A DNA stretch of 64,000 nt from Dysgonomonas sp. 520 (GTDB lineage Bacteria > Bacteroidota > Bacteroidia > Bacteroidales > Dysgonomonadaceae). A program made the position numbers and the translations under genes. The notes under the pieces are model-generated. The model searched no databases. It worked only from the letters and a program-made list of their open reading frames with translations, and had not been told where the DNA came from. The stretch lies in contig NZ_QVMP01000006.1 in the NCBI RefSeq assembly GCF_010501095.1, positions 1 through 64,000 of the forward strand. Reading direction: 5' to 3'. Below, piece by piece: positions 6,616-15,412 of the stretch (the first letter of the stretch is position 1; every line of letters starts with the position of its first letter).

Positions 6616-7167
6616 ATGAAAAAATATATTTTTATCTTATTCTTGATATTTACCGTTAATTCCATTTTCGGGCAGAGCACCCGTAAATCGGAATGGGCAA
6701 CTCCTGTTACAGGCATATCTCTAAAAAACATGTATAAGGTAGACAAAGGCGTCTATCGTTCGGCTCAACCGTCGGAGAAAAATTTTCTGGAATTGAAAAA
6801 TTTCGGAATAAAGGAGGTGCTCAATCTACGAAGCTATCATAGCGACAGGGATGAAAACGAGAAAGCCAAGCTTATTCTTCACAGGGTAAAAATGGATGCT
6901 CATGATATAGATACAGACGAAGTGATAGCAGCTCTGCGTATCATAAAGAACAGGAAGGGGAGCATTCTGATTCATTGCAAGCATGGTTCGGACAGAACCG
7001 GGTTGATTGTGGCTATGTACAGGATTGTTTTTCAGAACTGGAGTAAGAAAAAAGCAATTGACGAAATGAAAAACGGTGGCTATGGGCATCATTCCATATT
7101 CAGGAATATTCCGTCGTATATCAACAAAATTAATGTTTCGAAAATCAAGAAGGAACTAAATAATTAA
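6616..7167 (+). CDS. Secreted dual-specificity/tyrosine phosphatase
   Basis: The product is a 183-residue Cys-based protein phosphatase. A signal peptide (KKYIFILFLIFTVNSIFGQ) is followed by an N-terminal YRSAQPSE motif and the signature HCKHGSDRTG, placing the nucleophile at Cys121 and the P-loop Arg at Arg127. An upstream general acid is likely among Asp113-Asp116 region residues. It probably acts in the periplasm; the substrate (phosphotyrosine protein, polyphosphate or lipid phosphate) cannot be told. An in-frame ATG at 6601 would add five residues, but the signal peptide starts cleanly at 6616. It is a monocistronic gene divergent from the CDF transporter. Confidence 0.85.
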   Translation: MKKYIFILFLIFTVNSIFGQSTRKSEWATPVTGISLKNMYKVDKGVYRSAQPSEKNFLELKNFGIKEVLNLRSYHSDRDENEKAKLILHRVKMDAHDIDTDEVIAALRIIKNRKGSILIHCKHGSDRTGLIVAMYRIVFQNWSKKKAIDEMKNGGYGHHSIFRNIPSYINKINVSKIKKELNN

Positions 7168-7345: not shown

Positions 7346-7376
7346 TTTGTGTATTTCGGATAAATACATAACTTTG
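7346..7376 (+). promoter_or_regulatory. Promoter of the leucine operon
   Basis: The -33 TTTG (7346-7349) and -7 TAACTTTG (7369-7376) are separated by exactly 19 bp, a full Bacteroidetes housekeeping promoter. Initiation is expected near 7383, about 20 bp before the leader peptide ATG. Confidence 0.8.
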
Positions 7377-7404
7377 CATCACCATAATTAAAGCAAAAAG
7401 ATAT

Positions 7405-7479
7405 ATGTCACTTTTTTCTAACATTATTAGCATTATTATTCTCCTCTGGAAAACTCCTGGGGTGAATGTTGCTATGTAG
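7405..7479 (+). CDS. Branched-chain amino acid leader peptide (leu attenuator)
   Basis: This short ORF encodes 24 residues (MSLFSNIISIIILLWKTPGV followed by NVAM). Ten of the 24 are branched-chain residues: five Ile (all ATT), three Leu and two Val, with the cluster IISIIILL at residues 7-14. It begins about 20 bp after a well-formed promoter and its stop lies 23 bp before a strong intrinsic terminator that precedes leuA. This is the architecture of ribosome-mediated attenuation: stalling at Ile/Leu codons when charged tRNA is scarce should prevent the terminator from forming. An alternative antiterminator pairing was not convincingly identified by eye. Ile richness fits an operon that also holds a citramalate-synthase-like gene. 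Confidence 0.75.
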   Translation: MSLFSNIISIIILLWKTPGVNVAM

Positions 7480-7502
7480 TTAGATGTGCGAAAAATAACG
7501 AA

Positions 7503-7535
7503 AGCCTTTCTCCCAAAATGAGAAAGGCTTTTTTT
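7503..7535 (+). terminator. Attenuator terminator of the leu operon
   Basis: A perfect 10-bp stem AGCCTTTCTC (7503-7512) with GAGAAAGGCT (7520-7529), a 7-base loop and seven T. It lies between the leader peptide and leuA, with the leuA start 77 bp further on, so readthrough must be regulated. Confidence 0.85.
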
Positions 7536-7611
7536 GTTAGATATAGCTGCGAAAAAGCATCTCGAAATAGTGACGACAGGCTGGGAAATAAACAAAAAAA
7601 AATATTTGAGA

Positions 7612-9123
7612 ATGGAAAAGTTATTTATTTTTGACACAACATTGAGGGATGGCGAGCAGGTTCCCGGTTGCCAATTGAACACAATTGAAAAAATTGAAGT
7701 GGCAAAGGCTCTTGAGGCGTTGGGTGTTGATGTCATTGAAGCAGGATTTCCTGTATCCAGTCCGGGCGACTTTAACTCGGTTGTTGAAATTTCAAAAGCG
7801 GTGACGTGGCCAACGATATGTGCCCTTACCCGTGCAGTTGAAAAAGATATAGAAGTGGCAGCCGAAGCGCTCAAATATGCTAAGAAAAAACGTATACATA
7901 CTGGTATAGGAACATCCGACTATCACATCAAATACAAATTCAATTCAACTCAGGATGAGATACTTGAACGTGCAAAAGCATGTGTTAAATATGCCAAACG
8001 TTTTGTTGAAGACGTGGAGTTTTATGCCGAAGACGCCGGGCGCACAGACAACGCATATCTTGCCCGTGTGGTTCAGGCTGTGATTGACGCCGGAGCAACG
8101 GTTGTAAATATCCCTGACACCACAGGCTATTGTTTACCAACGGAATACGGTGCAAAGATCAAATACCTGATTGACCATGTGGATATGAAAAACGCAATTT
8201 TGTCTACACACTGTCATCAGGATTTAGGTATGGCAACTGCCAATTCCATCATGGGAGTTCTGAACGGTGCCCGTCAGGTTGAAGTTACAATAAACGGAAT
8301 AGGCGAACGTGCCGGAAATACATCTCTGGAAGAGGTTGTGATGGCAATCAAGAGCCACAAAGAATTGAAAATTGAAACAAATATCAATACACAAAAGATA
8401 TATCCGATCAGCAAAATGGTATCCAGTTTGATGAGTATGCCGATACAGCCGAATAAGGCGATTGTTGGGCGTAATGCTTTTGCTCATTCGTCCGGTATTC
8501 ATCAAGATGGGGTGTTGAAAGACCTTTCGACTTACGAAATCATCGACCCAAAAGATGTGGGAATTGACGACAATGCAATCGTTTTAACTGCACGCAGTGG
8601 TCGTGCCGCATTGAAAAACAGGCTGAATATACTAAGCATTCAGGTGAGTGACGATGAGTTGACAGAAGTCTACCAACGCTTTCTTGATCTGGCAGACAAG
8701 AAAAAAGACATTACTGATGAAGATTTGCTGACTCTTGCGGGCAAAGAAACAAACGGAATGAACCGTGTAAAGCTTGATTATCTTCAAGTTACATCGGGTG
8801 TAGGAGTGCGTTGCATAGCAAATGTAGGGATAGATATTGCAGGCGAAAAGTTCGATGCAGCCGCTTCGGGCAATGGACCTGTCGACGCCGCCATAAAAGC
8901 TGTATGGGAAGTTATATGCGACAATACGGTGATCAACGATGGAGAAACGGAAATAAAAGAATTTTTGATTCAAGCCATAAATAAGGGTAGTGACGATGTG
9001 GGTAAAGTTCACATGCAGGTTGAGCACAGAAAACAGATATATTATGGTTTTGCCGCTCACACCGATATTGTGGCAGCATCGGTCAAAGCGTTTATTAATG
9101 CTATAAATAAGTTCATTAAATAA
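7612..9123 (+). CDS. leuA: 2-isopropylmalate synthase
   Basis: The enzyme condenses acetyl-CoA with 2-oxoisovalerate, the first step of leucine synthesis. The 503 residues show [12 protein letters not shown] near the N-terminus, the metal-binding HCHQDLGMA motif, [12 protein letters not shown], and [13 protein letters not shown], followed by a C-terminal LeuA regulatory domain from about residue 380 that normally binds leucine for feedback inhibition. I start at the ATG at 7612 because the open frame that continues to 7534 would overlap the attenuator terminator and has no family similarity. It is the first structural gene after the attenuator. Confidence 0.95.
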
Positions 9124-9156: not shown

Positions 9157-10548
9157 ATGAAAACATTGTTTGATAAAATTTGGGATGCTCATGTAGTATC
9201 GTCAGTTGAAGACGGACCTGTTCAATTGTATATCGACAGGCATTTCTGTCACGAAGTAACAAGTCCTCAGGCTTTTAATGGCTTGCGTGAACGTGGGTTG
9301 AAAGTTTTTCGCCCCGAAAAAACCACTCTGACGGCAGACCATAATACACCTACAATCAATCAGGATCAGCCGGTGAAAGATCCTATATCTAAAAATCAGT
9401 TGGATACGTTGTCTAAAAATGCGGCGGATTTCAACCTTCCGTTATTTTATCCGTTGGGACACATAAAGAATGGTGTTGTTCACATCATTGGTCCTGAAAA
9501 CGGATTCACTCAACCGGGAATGACCATTGTTTGTGGCGATAGCCACACGTCCACTCACGGAGCTTTCGGTTCTGTCGCTTTTGGTATCGGAACGTCTGAG
9601 GTTGAGATGGTTTTGGCAACACAATGTATTTTGCAATCGCGCCCCAAAACGATGCGGATCACATTCAACGGAAAGTTGGGCGAAGGTGTAACAGCAAAAG
9701 ACTTGGCTCTTTATATGATCTCTAAATTGACAACAGGCGGTGCAACCGGCTATTTTGTAGAATATGCCGGCGAAGCCATCCGCAACATGTCGATGGAAGA
9801 ACGCATGACGCTTTGCAATTTGAGCATTGAGATGGGTGCCCGTGGAGGCCTTATCGCTCCGGATGAAAAAACTTTTGAATATGTGAAAGGACGCGAGTTT
9901 GCACCAAAGGGTGAAGAGTGGGATAAATCTCTGGCTTATTGGAAAACTCTAAAGACGGACGAAGGTGCGAAATTTGATAAAGAATTGACTTTCGATGCTG
10001 CCGACATCAAACCGATGATAACATACGGAACCAATCCGGGCATGGGTATGCCGATTGATGCGTCAATACCAACTTTGGATGAGGTGGACGAAGCAGGACG
10101 CATTTCTTTTCAGAAATCTATGGATTATATGGGATTCGAACCCGGAGAAAAACTGGAAGGAAAGCAGATCGACTATGTGTTTCTAGGTAGTTGTACAAAC
10201 GGTCGTATCGAAGATTTCCGTGCATTCGCCAACTATGTGAAAGGCAAGAAAAAAGCCGACAATGTGGTGGCTTGGCTTGTTCCGGGTAGTTGGATGGTTG
10301 AAAAACAAATCAGGGAAGAAGGCTTGTACGATATTCTGAAAGAAGCCGGATTTGAATTGCGTCAGCCGGGATGTTCGGCATGTCTTGCAATGAATGACGA
10401 CAAAGTTCCTGCCGGAAAATATGCCGTTTCCACATCTAATCGAAACTTTGAAGGGCGTCAAGGTCCCGGAGCACGAACAATCTTGGCAGGCCCGTTAGTT
10501 GCAGCGGCAGCAGCGGTGACAGGAAGAATTACAGATCCGAGGAAATAA
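9157..10548 (+). CDS. leuC: 3-isopropylmalate dehydratase large subunit
   Basis: LeuC and LeuD form isopropylmalate isomerase, which converts 2- to 3-isopropylmalate with a [4Fe-4S] cluster. The 463-residue product has [19 protein letters not shown], and cluster ligands Cys346 (GSCTNGR), Cys406 and Cys409 ([10 protein letters not shown]). Length matches the family. The ATG at 9157 is preferred to a TTG at 9148 because [12 protein letters not shown] is the usual N-terminus. It follows leuA by 33 bp in the same operon. Confidence 0.96.
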
Positions 10549-10595
10549 TTGTCTAATAACTTAATACCGTTAGCGCACAGATAACGTAAATATAG

Positions 10596-10713
10596 TTTGT
10601 CATGCTGAACGATAGTGAAGCATCTGTATCTAGTAAACAAGATACATGATACTGTTTTTTCACTCGTCTACTTGTTTTTTTGCAGATCCTTCGTTACACT
10701 CAGGATGACAATT
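10596..10713. repeat. Palindromic GTCAT-CTGA repeat (family A, copy 1)
   Basis: The two arms, TGTCATGCTGAACGATAGTG (from 10598) and its inverted partner ending in ACACTCAGGATGACA (to 10710), flank a T-rich centre. The same unit recurs at 14197-14263, 43271-43334 and 63213-63284. It accounts for a third of the unusually long 320-bp leuC-leuD spacer; 10714-10868 shows nothing further. Confidence 0.8.
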
Positions 10714-10868: not shown

Positions 10869-11459
10869 ATGGAAAAATTTCAAACATTAAAATCGACATA
10901 CGTACCACTTCCTATCGAGAATGTGGACACCGACCAGATCATTCCCGCACGTTTCCTGAAAGCTACAACCAGAGACGGGTTCGGCGACAATCTTTTTGCC
11001 GATTGGCGTTACAATAAAGATGGTAGTCCGAAAGCAGATTTCGTTCTGAACAATCCCACGTATAGCGGGCAGATACTTGTTGCCGGAAAGAATTTCGGAA
11101 GCGGTTCGAGTCGCGAACATGCCGCTTGGGCAGTAGCAGGGTATGGTTTTAAAGCGGTAGTTTCAAGTTTTTTTGCAGATATTTTTAAAAATAATGCACT
11201 GAATAACGGGGTTCTTCCTGTGGTGGTTTCGCCCGAATTTCTGGCAAAAATATTTGAAAGCGTAGATAAAGACCCGAAAGCAACATTGACTATCGACCTA
11301 GAAAATCAGACAGTGACAAATGATGTGACAGGAGAATCGGAATCGTTCGAAATCAATGCGTACAAAAAAGAATGTCTGCTCAAAGGTCTTGATGATATAG
11401 ATTATCTGTTGTCGAAAAAAGATCAGATAGAACAATACGAAACAAACTCAAAACTATAA
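10869..11459 (+). CDS. leuD: 3-isopropylmalate dehydratase small subunit
   Basis: This 196-residue swivelling subunit of isopropylmalate isomerase carries [13 protein letters not shown] near residue 20, the [14 protein letters not shown] substrate loop, and [17 protein letters not shown]. Length is typical of LeuD. It is separated from its partner leuC by 320 bp holding a family-A repeat, so the operon appears stretched by repeat insertion. It ends 13 bp before the glycosyltransferase gene. Confidence 0.95.
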
Positions 11460-11472
11460 AGAATTGACTATA

Positions 11473-12633
11473 ATGGGAAATTCGGAGAAAAAAATAAAAG
11501 TTGGCTTTCTAGCTATGCGAAATCCACAAAATAAGGCGGCTTGGTCTGGCACAATTCATCAATTGTACGAAAATATAAAAGCAAATGATGTTGAAATTAG
11601 CTGGATACCCGTTTCTGAGAATAAATCTGCTCAGATGTTTAATCGCATTGTTAGTATTTTCACCAAACTTTTGAAGAAAAAAAAATCTCCGCATTTCACC
11701 TATATATCCAAGCAACTGGCCAGATCTGTCGATCTTGATCAATTGAATCAGGTAGATATTGTTTTCTCTCCGGCGGGTTCTGTAAACATCGCCTACCTGA
11801 AAACAAACAAGCCTATATTATACTTGACGGATACCACCTTCAAACTTATGTATAGTTACTATCCGGAATTTTCTAATTTCATGCCTTGCAATGTGATGCA
11901 GGGCAATAAATTGGAAAAGATTTCGGCAAATAAGGCTTGGCGGATAATTTCGGCATCCGATTGGTGCAGCAATTCATTGATCAACGACTATGGAGTTGAC
12001 AGTAAAAAAATAAAAGTTCTTGAGTTTGGGGCAAACATTACAGATATAAGCCTGAAAGCTGAATCAAGGTTTGATAAGAATAATACTTTAAATCTTCTTT
12101 TTCTTGGGGTAGGCTGGAAACGTAAAGGCGGAGATATAGCGGTCGATTGTGTGAAATCGCTCAATGAACAAGGAGTAAAAGCAACTCTTTCCATTGTTGG
12201 GTCGAAACTTCCTGAAAATCATCAAAATTGCGAATCTATCAAATCTTATGGTTTCTTGAATAAAAACAACGAGGATGAATACCAAATACTTAAACAGGTG
12301 ATTTCGGAAAGCGATTTGCTTATTCTCCCTACCAGTGCCGAATGTGCCGGGATTGTTTTTGCCGAAGCAAGTGCCTATGGTTTACCTATTTTCACTTACG
12401 ACACGGGAGGAATTCCGAATTATGTGATAAACGGAAAAAATGGGTATAGAATGAATATGAATTCGACGGGAAAAGATTTTGCCCTGAAAATAAAAGAATG
12501 TATAGATAATGAAGAATTTGAAACTTTAAAGAAAGGTTGCCTGGAAGTATATCATGAAAAATTGAACTGGACAGTCTGGCAAAAAAAGTTTCAGAAAATA
12601 CTTGATGAATACAGAAAGGAGTTTTATATATGA
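11473..12633 (+). CDS. Glycosyltransferase family 4-like protein
   Basis: The 386-residue product has a GT-B layout: an N-terminal half with KVGFLAMRNPQNKAAWSGT and a C-terminal donor-binding half with NLLFLGVGWKRKGGD, then LLILPTSAECAGIVFAEASA and FTYDTGGIPNYV, the EX7E-type region that contacts the nucleotide sugar. No membrane helix is seen, so it is cytoplasmic or peripheral. Start ATG at 11473 is chosen over a TTG at 11464. It is embedded in the leucine operon, 13 bp after leuD and overlapping the next gene by 4 bp; a leucine-related role is not evident, so it may be an inserted passenger. Donor and acceptor unknown. Confidence 0.8.
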   Translation: MGNSEKKIKVGFLAMRNPQNKAAWSGTIHQLYENIKANDVEISWIPVSENKSAQMFNRIVSIFTKLLKKKKSPHFTYISKQLARSVDLDQLNQVDIVFSPAGSVNIAYLKTNKPILYLTDTTFKLMYSYYPEFSNFMPCNVMQGNKLEKISANKAWRIISASDWCSNSLINDYGVDSKKIKVLEFGANITDISLKAESRFDKNNTLNLLFLGVGWKRKGGDIAVDCVKSLNEQGVKATLSIVGSKLPENHQNCESIKSYGFLNKNNEDEYQILKQVISESDLLILPTSAECAGIVFAEASAYGLPIFTYDTGGIPNYVINGKNGYRMNMNSTGKDFALKIKECIDNEEFETLKKGCLEVYHEKLNWTVWQKKFQKILDEYRKEFYI

Positions 12634-14141
12634 TCGAAATAATGGATACAACTCTTCGGGACGGGGAACAAACTAGTGGTGTTTCGTTTTCTTCTCAAGA
12701 AAAAATGAGTATAGCTCACTTGCTCTTGGTGGATTTAGGCGTAAACCGTATCGAGATTGCATCGGCTCGTGTTTCCGAAGGAGAATTTAATACGGTAAAG
12801 AAGATTGCAGACTGGGCTAAAGCCACAGGTTATATAGATAGGCTTGAGGTTCTGGGGTTTGTAGATAATGGAGCATCTATCGATTGGATAAAAGAAGTAG
12901 GATGCAACACGATTAATCTCCTGACAAAAGGTTCTTACAAGCATGTTACGGAACAATTGAGAAAAACTCCCGAACAACACCTCGAAGACATTAAACGTGA
13001 AATAAATATTGCGAAGGAAAAAGGTCTTACCGTAAACCTGTATCTCGAAGATTGGTCGAATGGCATACTTCATTCCGAAGATTATGTCTACTTCTTGATG
13101 GACAATCTGAAAGATATGCCGATAAAAAGATTCATGCTTCCCGATACGCTGGGAATACTGAATCCTCATACTACGTGGCGTGCCTGCCGTAGAATGACCA
13201 AACGTTATCCCGACCTCCATTTCGATTTTCATGCGCATAACGATTACGACTTGGCCGTTGCCAATGTCATGGTGGCAGTAGAAGTTGGCGTTCAGGGTGT
13301 TCATGTCACGATAAACGGATTGGGCGAACGTGCCGGAAACGCATCCCTGTCGAGTGTTGTTTCTATATTGCACGACCACTTAAAGATGGAGACAAGCATT
13401 AAGGAAGACCATATAAACAAGGTGAGCCGGGTGGTAGAAACTTACTCAGGCCTTAATATTGCAGCCAACCAACCCATCATCGGCGAAAATGTATTTACTC
13501 AGTGTGCAGGAATTCACGCAGATGGAGATCAGAAGAACAACCTATATTTCAACGACTTATCTCCCGAACGTTTTGGGCGGATACGAGAATATGCTTTGGG
13601 TAAGCTGTCAGGAAAATCCAATATAAGAAAAAATATTGAAGCCTTGGGTATCGAGCTGACTGAGCCGGAAATGATGAAGGTGACTAACCGTGTCATAGAG
13701 TTGGGCGATAAGAAAGAAATCATAACTCAAGCCGACTTGCCATATATAATTTCCGACGTATTGAAAAATGGTGAACGGGAAGATAAAATCAAGATAATGT
13801 CTTTTGCGTTTCTCCTGACAAAAGGACTACGCCCAACGGCAACCGTTCGTGTAGAGATTGATGGTGTTGAGTATGAGCAAACTTCGGCGGGAGACGGTCA
13901 GTATCATGCGTTTTCTAAGGCATTATGGAAGATTTATACTAAATTGGACAAGGAAAAACCCGATTTAGTGAATTATGTGGTTATAATTCCTCCCGGTGGA
14001 CGTACCGACGCCCTTGTTCAGACGATAATCACATGGAACTTCAAAGGCAAGGAATTTAAGACAAAAGGTCTGGATGCCGACCAAACAGAGGCGGCAGTGA
14101 AAGCAACAATAAAGATGTTGAACCTTATAGAGGATATGTAA
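12630..14141 (+). CDS. Second LeuA-family synthase, possibly citramalate synthase
   Basis: This 503-residue paralogue of LeuA has [16 protein letters not shown], the FHAHNDYDLAVAN metal motif, INGLGERAGNASLSS, AGIHADGD, and a C-terminal LeuA-type regulatory domain from about residue 385. It differs from the first LeuA around the substrate pocket (TSGVSF instead of VPGCQLN). Family members include 2-isopropylmalate, citramalate and homocitrate synthases; the leu operon setting and the Ile-rich leader make citramalate synthase (pyruvate route to isoleucine) a reasonable inference, not a proof. It overlaps the glycosyltransferase stop by ATGA. Confidence 0.75.
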   Translation: MIEIMDTTLRDGEQTSGVSFSSQEKMSIAHLLLVDLGVNRIEIASARVSEGEFNTVKKIADWAKATGYIDRLEVLGFVDNGASIDWIKEVGCNTINLLTKGSYKHVTEQLRKTPEQHLEDIKREINIAKEKGLTVNLYLEDWSNGILHSEDYVYFLMDNLKDMPIKRFMLPDTLGILNPHTTWRACRRMTKRYPDLHFDFHAHNDYDLAVANVMVAVEVGVQGVHVTINGLGERAGNASLSSVVSILHDHLKMETSIKEDHINKVSRVVETYSGLNIAANQPIIGENVFTQCAGIHADGDQKNNLYFNDLSPERFGRIREYALGKLSGKSNIRKNIEALGIELTEPEMMKVTNRVIELGDKKEIITQADLPYIISDVLKNGEREDKIKIMSFAFLLTKGLRPTATVRVEIDGVEYEQTSAGDGQYHAFSKALWKIYTKLDKEKPDLVNYVVIIPPGGRTDALVQTIITWNFKGKEFKTKGLDADQTEAAVKATIKMLNLIEDM

Positions 14142-14169: not shown

Positions 14170-14302
14170 CCGTCTAGACTTTTTCGTTTTATTCAATTTT
14201 GTCATCCTGAGAGTATCGAAGGATCTGTTTTTTAGATGTTTCACTACGTTCAACATGACAAAAACTCAAAAATTAAGTATAATTTAAAAAGTCTAGATGA
14301 CT
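14170..14302. repeat. Palindromic GTCAT-CTGA repeat (family A, copy 2) with outer inverted ends
   Basis: The core has TTTTGTCATCCTGAGAGTAT (from 14197) against the inverted CACTACGTTCAACATGACAAA to 14263. Outside this, TCTAGACTTTTT at about 14173 and AAAAAGTCTAGA at about 14287 form a further 12-bp inverted repeat, so the unit here may be 130 bp long. It fills most of the spacer before leuB. Confidence 0.75.
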
Positions 14303-14344: not shown

Positions 14345-15412
14345 ATGAAATTGAATATCGCAGTTTTGCCGGGAGATGGAATTGGTCCCGAAATTATTAG
14401 TCAGGCTTTGCGGGTGACCGAAGCTATTTGTGAAAAATTCGGACACGAGTTGTCTTATGAGTACGGTCTTGTTGGCGCATGTGCCATTGACGAAGTTGGC
14501 AGTCCTTATCCACAAGGAACTCACGACTTGTGCATGGAATCGGATGCCGTACTTTTCGGAGCCATCGGGGATCCTAAATACGACAACAATCCATCGGCAA
14601 AAATTCGCCCCGAACAGGGATTGCTAAAAATGAGAAAAGACTTAGGCTTATATGCAAACCTGCGGCCAATTACTACTTTCCCTTCATTGATACATAAATC
14701 GCCGCTTCGTGCCGATTTGGTTGAGGGTGCTGATTTTATGTGTGTGCGTGAACTCACCGGAGGACTTTATTTCGGTCGTCCACAAGGCAGAAGCGAGGAT
14801 GGAAACACTGCCTACGACACATGCGTATACACCCGTGAAGAAGTAGAGCGTATTTTGCATCTTTCATATAAATATGCCCGCCAACGCCGCAAGAAAGTTA
14901 CGGTTGTGGACAAGGCTAACGTGTTGGCTACATCACGTTTGTGGCGTGAAGTGGCACAGGAAGTTGAGAAACAATATCCTGATGTGGAAACCGAATATAT
15001 GTTTGTAGACAATGCAGCCATGCAGATAATTCAGTGGCCAAAACGTTTTGATGTATTGGTAACGGAAAATCTCTTCGGAGATATCCTCACGGACGAATCG
15101 TCTGTCATCACAGGCTCTCTAGGCATGTTGCCATCGGCTTCGATAGGTATTCACACTTCGGTTTTTGAGCCTATTCATGGGTCATACCCTCAGGCAGCGG
15201 GAAAAAATATTGCAAACCCAGTTGCAACCATTCTTTCTGCAGCAATGATGTTCGAATATGCATTCAACCTGATGGATGAGGGAAAACTGATTCGGGAAGC
15301 TGTTAACGCATCTCTCGATGCTAATATTGTTACGGAAGATATTGCCTCGGGAGGCAAAGCGTATACAACATCGGAGGTTGGCGACTGGATAGTTGAATAC
15401 GTGAAAAAATAA
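14345..15412 (+). CDS. leuB: 3-isopropylmalate dehydrogenase
   Basis: LeuB oxidises and decarboxylates 3-isopropylmalate to 2-oxoisocaproate with NAD. The 355-residue protein shows [41 protein letters not shown], the [13 protein letters not shown] substrate loop, [14 protein letters not shown] and the NAD-binding [17 protein letters not shown]. Length is normal. It is the last gene of the leucine cluster, 203 bp after the second LeuA-like gene with a repeat in between; no separate promoter is evident, so it probably depends on readthrough. Confidence 0.96.

Follow-up and report, generated by a model that had tools for sequence, protein, structure and literature searches.

The window, the whole 64,000-nucleotide stretch of Dysgonomonas sp. 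520 DNA that was analysed, carries a leucine operon that begins with leuA, leuC and leuD, continues with a GT4-type glycosyltransferase gene and a gene resembling citramalate synthase, and closes with leuB (Table 1). The segment upstream of leuA, positions 7346-7611, can be read directly as a promoter, a leader open reading frame and an intrinsic terminator, and a gene on the same strand ends further upstream at 7167. The initial annotation had described this arrangement of promoter, leader, stop, terminator hairpin and leuA, and its description is accurate. The promoter is of the Bacteroides type, the consensus of which is general knowledge, and the motif TAnnTTTG lies 5' of the leader in 47 of 87 relatives, against 6.25 expected in shuffles. 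A sigma-70 promoter scan does not detect the window's promoter and was dropped as a test, being uninformative in Bacteroidota. The glycosyltransferase gene (11464-12633) lies between leuD and cimA, and no similar gene is found between these two genes in the loci of 80 named relatives. Similar palindromic repeats of the TGTCAT.CTGA ... ATGACA type are seen in the leuC-leuD gap (10590-10710) and in the cimA-leuB gap (14200-14260), and are possibly MITE- or REP-like elements within the operon.

Table 1. Features of the leader region and the operon downstream of it (window coordinates).
Feature	Position	Strand	Details
Bacteroides-type promoter	7346-7376	+	TTTG 7346-7349 (-33); TAACTTTG 7369-7376 (-7)
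Leader ORF, MSLFSNIISIIILLWKTPGVNVAM and stop	7405-7479	+	ATG 7405, TAG 7477-7479, 24 codons; homologous leaders in relatives
Protector/pause hairpin (1:2), control codons paired with strand 2	7417-7484	+	-22.4 kcal/mol; shuffle mean -15.5
Control codons, RNA strand 1	7423-7446	+	ATT ATT AGC ATT ATT ATT CTC CTC (Ile x5, Leu x2)
Antiterminator strand 2, UGGGGUGAAUGUUGCU	7458-7473	+	encodes the G-V-N-V-A tail; starts 11-12 nt beyond the final Leu codon
Intrinsic terminator (3:4)	7500-7535	+	stem 7500-7512/7520-7532; T run 7529-7535
Strand 3, AGCCUUUCUCCCA	7503-7515	+	terminator 5' arm and loop; can pair with strand 2
leuA, 2-isopropylmalate synthase	7612-9123	+	NF002086, 707 bits
leuC	9157-10548	+	profile match
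leuD	10869-11459	+	profile match
cimA-like citramalate synthase (isoleucine branch)	12630-14141	+	NF042433, 650.9 bits; 3ble, E 7.5e-115
leuB	14345-15412	+	profile match

Isoleucine, leucine and valine account for 10 of the 24 leader codons, with five ATT codons ahead of the CTC CTC that closes the run, exactly as had been annotated. Seven such residues within eight codons arise in 0.4% of 3000 dinucleotide shuffles of 7346-7611, and an Ile/Leu(/Val) run ahead of strand 2 is also found in the leaders of relatives. The choice of codons differs from that of the structural genes: CTA makes up 34% of Leu codons in the leaders and 3% in leuA of the same genomes, GTC 55% and 11% of Val codons, and ATT 84% and 40% of Ile codons. 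The leader is thereby predicted to be a translatable short reading frame harboring control codons for the product of the operon; the window's peptide has no match in Pfam or NCBIfam. Its tail, WKTPGVNVAM, had been singled out as unusual. The tail is present, but it is not a special peptide, as its residues vary between species while RNA with a GUGAG core is kept, and a role as an arrest peptide is rejected on the same grounds. The RNA is conserved because the tail is the antiterminator strand, which often overlaps the leader stop codon.

The terminator stands between the leader and the first gene of the operon, the position expected in an attenuator, and the annotated hairpin is confirmed as a stem of 13 pairs with a loop of 7 nt and a T run to 7535. 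Terminator-like sites number 3 against 0.7 expected, and the fold of 7378-7540 has a z-score of -4.3 relative to shuffles. A 10-pair terminator stem is conserved in 26 sequences, with three of its pairs changed on both sides. In the minimum-energy folds the strand-2 side is paired with the control-codon side in 86 of 87 cases.

For the comparison, leuA loci were drawn from whole genomes and from named genomes, and 87 distinct leuA leaders were kept. In the first set of loci, all family members whose upstream DNA could be read have an Ile/Leu(/Val) leader, and nearly all of them a terminator beginning CCTTTCTC. Examples of the leaders are MNQSFIHILLCGIIILLAKVGGSECRA in Bacteroides fragilis, MKQEKLNSLIISLNIILLWGQDRK in Parabacteroides massiliensis, MNTHSIAILVISILLLEDFRG in Petrimonas and MKLFTNILSSIILLWENLRVSSAA in Dysgonomonas sp. 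HGC4. A covariance model trained on 26 leuA leaders matches 93 of the family's 101 genomes (among those of good quality, 60 of 62) and 90 of 295 genomes of the order, matches that lean on sequence because the only base pairs in the model are those of the terminator. At distant leuA loci, of about 67% identity, the element is mostly absent. The initial annotation had taken an absence of the short reading frame or hairpin from relatives as refutation; leader, terminator and antiterminator pairing are all conserved in Bacteroidales. The alignment that it proposed likewise returned the synonymous bias that it sought, the control block having changed at 0.258 per synonymous site and 0.106 per non-synonymous site. 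Such conservation places the predicted element far beyond chance. Loci from Apibacter and from 'Flavobacteriaceae' metagenome-assembled genomes (four in all) have a leuA 79-82% identical to that of the window and a leader of the Bacteroidales type, such as MSLFTNIISIILILGQTQGE; the operon may possibly have been transferred between orders together with its attenuator.

The third structural component, the antiterminator, is most clearly seen in the relatives. Their strand 2 lies at the end of the leader reading frame and has the core GUGAG, often across the stop codon UGA; this segment is complementary to CUCAC of the terminator 5' arm and to the terminator loop, so that across the family the antiterminator and the terminator exclude one another. 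Over 68 distinct sequences, 82.5% of the cells of a 10-pair 2:3 helix are paired, against 74.8% in shuffles. Cells in which both sides have changed number 102, against 49.9 (sd 8.5) in shuffles, none of the 500 shuffles reaching 102; this comparison is inflated by the relatedness of the sequences, which is retained in slid-register controls, where sliding destroys the signal and leaves 5-38 such cells. Six of the pairs show changes on both sides, and in the near-invariant core a UA-to-CG replacement has occurred on both sides in five sequences. The strand-2 core was picked by a GUGAG-like motif, which favours the unslid register within the core, and most of the covariation is held by the outer five pairs, which were not selected for. 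When terminators are swapped between leaders, the pairing energy of -15.8 kcal/mol for leaders with their own terminators weakens to -13.4 kcal/mol, the best of 100 swaps giving -14.0. Scoring truncated transcripts by whether the leader forms at least five pairs with strand 3 was dropped as a test; since 93% of shuffled leaders reach that threshold, only energies and covariation carry weight. Strand 2 usually begins no more than about 12 nt past the last Ile, Leu or Val codon in relatives, a spacing that would let a ribosome stalled on the run leave strand 2 free and one that reaches the stop cover it.

We consider that the element is a ribosome-mediated transcription attenuator of the leuACD-cimA-leuB operon, with a probability of about 0.87. 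The initial annotation had proposed this mechanism by analogy with the ilv and leu leaders of enterobacteria, and the conserved leader, terminator and covarying antiterminator argue for it. Sequence and comparison supply its foundations, namely the leader, its codon choice, the terminator, the family-wide 2:3 pairing and the pathway-matched sibling leaders described below; from these we infer the stalling, the termination and the response in the cell, as well as the continued working of the window's weak 2:3 pairing. In outline, a ribosome would be translating the 24-codon peptide as RNA polymerase transcribes the leader. Where charged Ile-tRNA or Leu-tRNA is scarce, the ribosome would stall on the ATT/CTC run, and the stall would free strand 2 to pair with strand 3, with the result that no terminator forms and leuA is transcribed. 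With isoleucine and leucine both in good supply, the ribosome would cover strand 2 up to the stop, allowing the terminator to form and transcription to end near 7535. If the leader is not translated, strand 2 would be sequestered in the 1:2 hairpin, and termination would again be the outcome.

The conserved antiterminator pairing that the initial annotation sought thus exists and covaries in the family, but in the window's copy it is shifted and weak. The ancestral pair is altered both in strand 2 (UGGGGUGAA) and in the terminator (CUCCCA), and the two can be matched only by shifting the register, with UGGGG opposite UCCCA. According to the target used, the duplex energy ranges from -8.5 to -10.6 kcal/mol, which is near the weak end of the family; 79% of distinct terminators would pair better with the window's leader, and its truncated transcript does not outperform shuffles, 73% of which fold as low. 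The leader reading frame also extends about 15 nt beyond the strand-2 core, so that masking by the terminating ribosome would be looser than in relatives with the stop inside strand 2. It may therefore be asked whether, within a family of real attenuators, the window's copy is degenerating, with an eroded antiterminator and a terminator that serves as a constant brake and regulates little. The pairing no better than shuffled sequence, the loss of the ancestral register and two broken core positions are what such decay would produce. However, the promoter, the leader with its control codons, the 1:2 hairpin and the terminator have all stayed intact, and the ancestral helix is replaced on both sides by a 4-pair Watson-Crick helix, UGGG/CCCA, a joint change that suggests compensation. 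The duplex energy of -10.6 is moreover close to those of two relatives, L002 (-11.6) and L004 (-12.6). We regard degeneration as improbable, on a comparison set that represents the genus by this one genome.

Still less probable is control of termination by a metabolite-binding riboswitch or a protein-binding leader that dispenses with translation of the peptide. A terminator and alternative folds exist, and a riboswitch would use them too, yet no Rfam riboswitch reaches its gathering score, the matches being weak and below cut-off, and neither a peptide whose composition tracks the downstream pathway nor a non-random codon choice fits such a device. That the short reading frame is a chance product of AT-rich DNA, and the terminator merely the end of the transcript of the upstream gene, accords with that gene lying on the same strand and with the 8% of the 3000 shuffles that contain a frame with at least 10 Ile, Leu or Val codons, a frequency due to the AT-richness of the region, but is refuted by the retention of leader and terminator before leuA where the surrounding sequence of relatives has diverged, by the synonymous bias of the control block and by the covariation of the terminator with the leader, and is the most remote of these explanations.

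The attenuator reading has also to account for isoleucine codons in the leader of a leucine operon. The product of 12630-14141 is nearest to Leptospira CimA, scoring 650.9 bits with NF042433 against a curated cut-off of 950, and far above any LeuA model. It matches the solved structure 3ble, and in the alignment Leu81, Leu104 and Tyr144, which we take to set pyruvate specificity in Leptospira CimA, appear conserved. Threonine deaminase was sought in the genome with PF00585, which gave no match while control families were detected, and with TIGR01127, whose only match scored 66 bits, the cut-off being 379. At least 54 of the 80 named loci retain the order leuA-leuC-leuD-cimA-leuB, and many of the others are truncated. 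Leucine and isoleucine are therefore most likely both products of the operon, the latter formed through citramalate, and the isoleucine codons fit a leader that would sense both. The earlier suggestion of joint isoleucine and leucine sensing gains support from the cimA-like gene, from the lack of a threonine deaminase above cut-off and from the Val-rich leaders found before ilvD.

These ilvD leaders belong to a wider set. In the same genome the covariance model picks out a second element, which precedes ilvD (contig C11, 164079-164238), with the Leu/Val/Ile leader MTKSAYNYLVLDILLVCTNK followed by a stop; its strand 2, UGAGAAAGGU, overlaps the stop and is exactly complementary to the terminator arm ACCUUUCUCA. 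Valine residues average 1.1 in leu leaders and 3.8 in ilvD leaders (p 2e-10), and isoleucine residues 4.3 and 2.6, respectively (p 4e-7). The covariance model also weakly matches the leader of a trpB-like gene in this genome (contig C30, 3783-3919), MFQKKNTYWWWRLQLSKVVS and a stop, with the run WWW; this element passes the Rfam Bacteroid-trp model (RF01692) at 49.2 bits, the gathering score being 49. Elsewhere, a Phe-rich leader, MAVRFFTYFFFYFYFNR and a stop, is found with a terminator before a gene resembling prephenate dehydratase in one genome. Asn-rich leaders, MALFNNNNINLNNNCNDRLLQRGGYY and MFILNNFNLLINNNPFER, lie with terminators before asnA- and asnB-like genes in genomes G129 and G081, respectively; among the asnA loci examined for Asn-rich leaders, only that of G129 has one, start-codon finding being imperfect. 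At four loci in four genomes, G081 and G129 among them, tandem model matches fall within about 250-350 nt before ilvD-, ilvE- or similar genes, and these pairs are possible tandem leader attenuators. We tentatively raise, as a doubtful generalization, an attenuator scaffold spread across the order Bacteroidales, consisting of the terminator CCUUUCUC...GAGAAAGG and a strand 2 over the leader end or stop, which would have been copied between operons, sometimes in tandem, and re-coded by exchange of its control codons. The leuA version would carry Ile/Leu codons and the ilvD version would be Val-rich, with Phe versions at pheA-like and Asn versions at asnA/asnB-like genes in some lineages. The form shared by the leuA, ilvD, Phe and Asn elements could also have come about through convergence rather than common descent.

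For Bacteroidales, Bacteroides fragilis and Parabacteroides among them, the element provides a concrete and testable regulatory feature of branched-chain amino-acid synthesis, in a place covered by no Rfam family. It offers a reason for the isoleucine codons at their leucine operons, where isoleucine is probably made via citramalate, and would help annotators to find dozens of overlooked leader genes and give them names.

Attenuators of the enterobacterial leu and ilv operons make use of leader-peptide control codons and mutually exclusive hairpins, and favour rare Leu codons. The Bacteroidales element resembles leuL and ilvL (of leu and ilvGMEDA) in its control codons for the pathway product, in three mutually exclusive hairpins with a terminator before the first gene, and in a preference for rare Leu codons, computed here for the Bacteroidales leaders. 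It differs in showing no sequence relation to them, in combining Ile and Leu codons in the leuA leader, with cimA in the operon, and in having a strand 2 that overlaps the leader end or stop codon. Among the Rfam leader families tested, including Leu_leader, none scores over its gathering threshold with the leu element, the best being Thr_leader at 29.4 bits against 55, and Bacteroid-trp RF01692 gives no match at E up to 10. Bacteroid-trp RNA is the known trp example from Bacteroidota (Rfam RF01692; Weinberg et al. 2010, PMC2864571) and shares the phylum, a leader peptide and a terminator, but has Trp codons, serves trp genes and has the family terminator CCUGUCGCACC where the leu element has CCUUUCUCACC. 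Also within Bacteroidota, leader-peptide attenuation has been suggested for amino-acid operons of Flavobacterium psychrophilum (PMC9723704), and short reading frames in long 5' UTRs have been described in B. thetaiotaomicron (PMC7366714); neither a leu leader nor any structure or covariation appears in the relevant passages of these reports. A search of the open literature yielded no paper on a leu leader of Bacteroidales, though the comparative study of Lopatovskaya et al. (2010; cited in PMC4833913) may have predicted some. The kind of attenuator is thus well known, and the Bacteroidales leu element is a widely conserved member of it that Rfam does not list.
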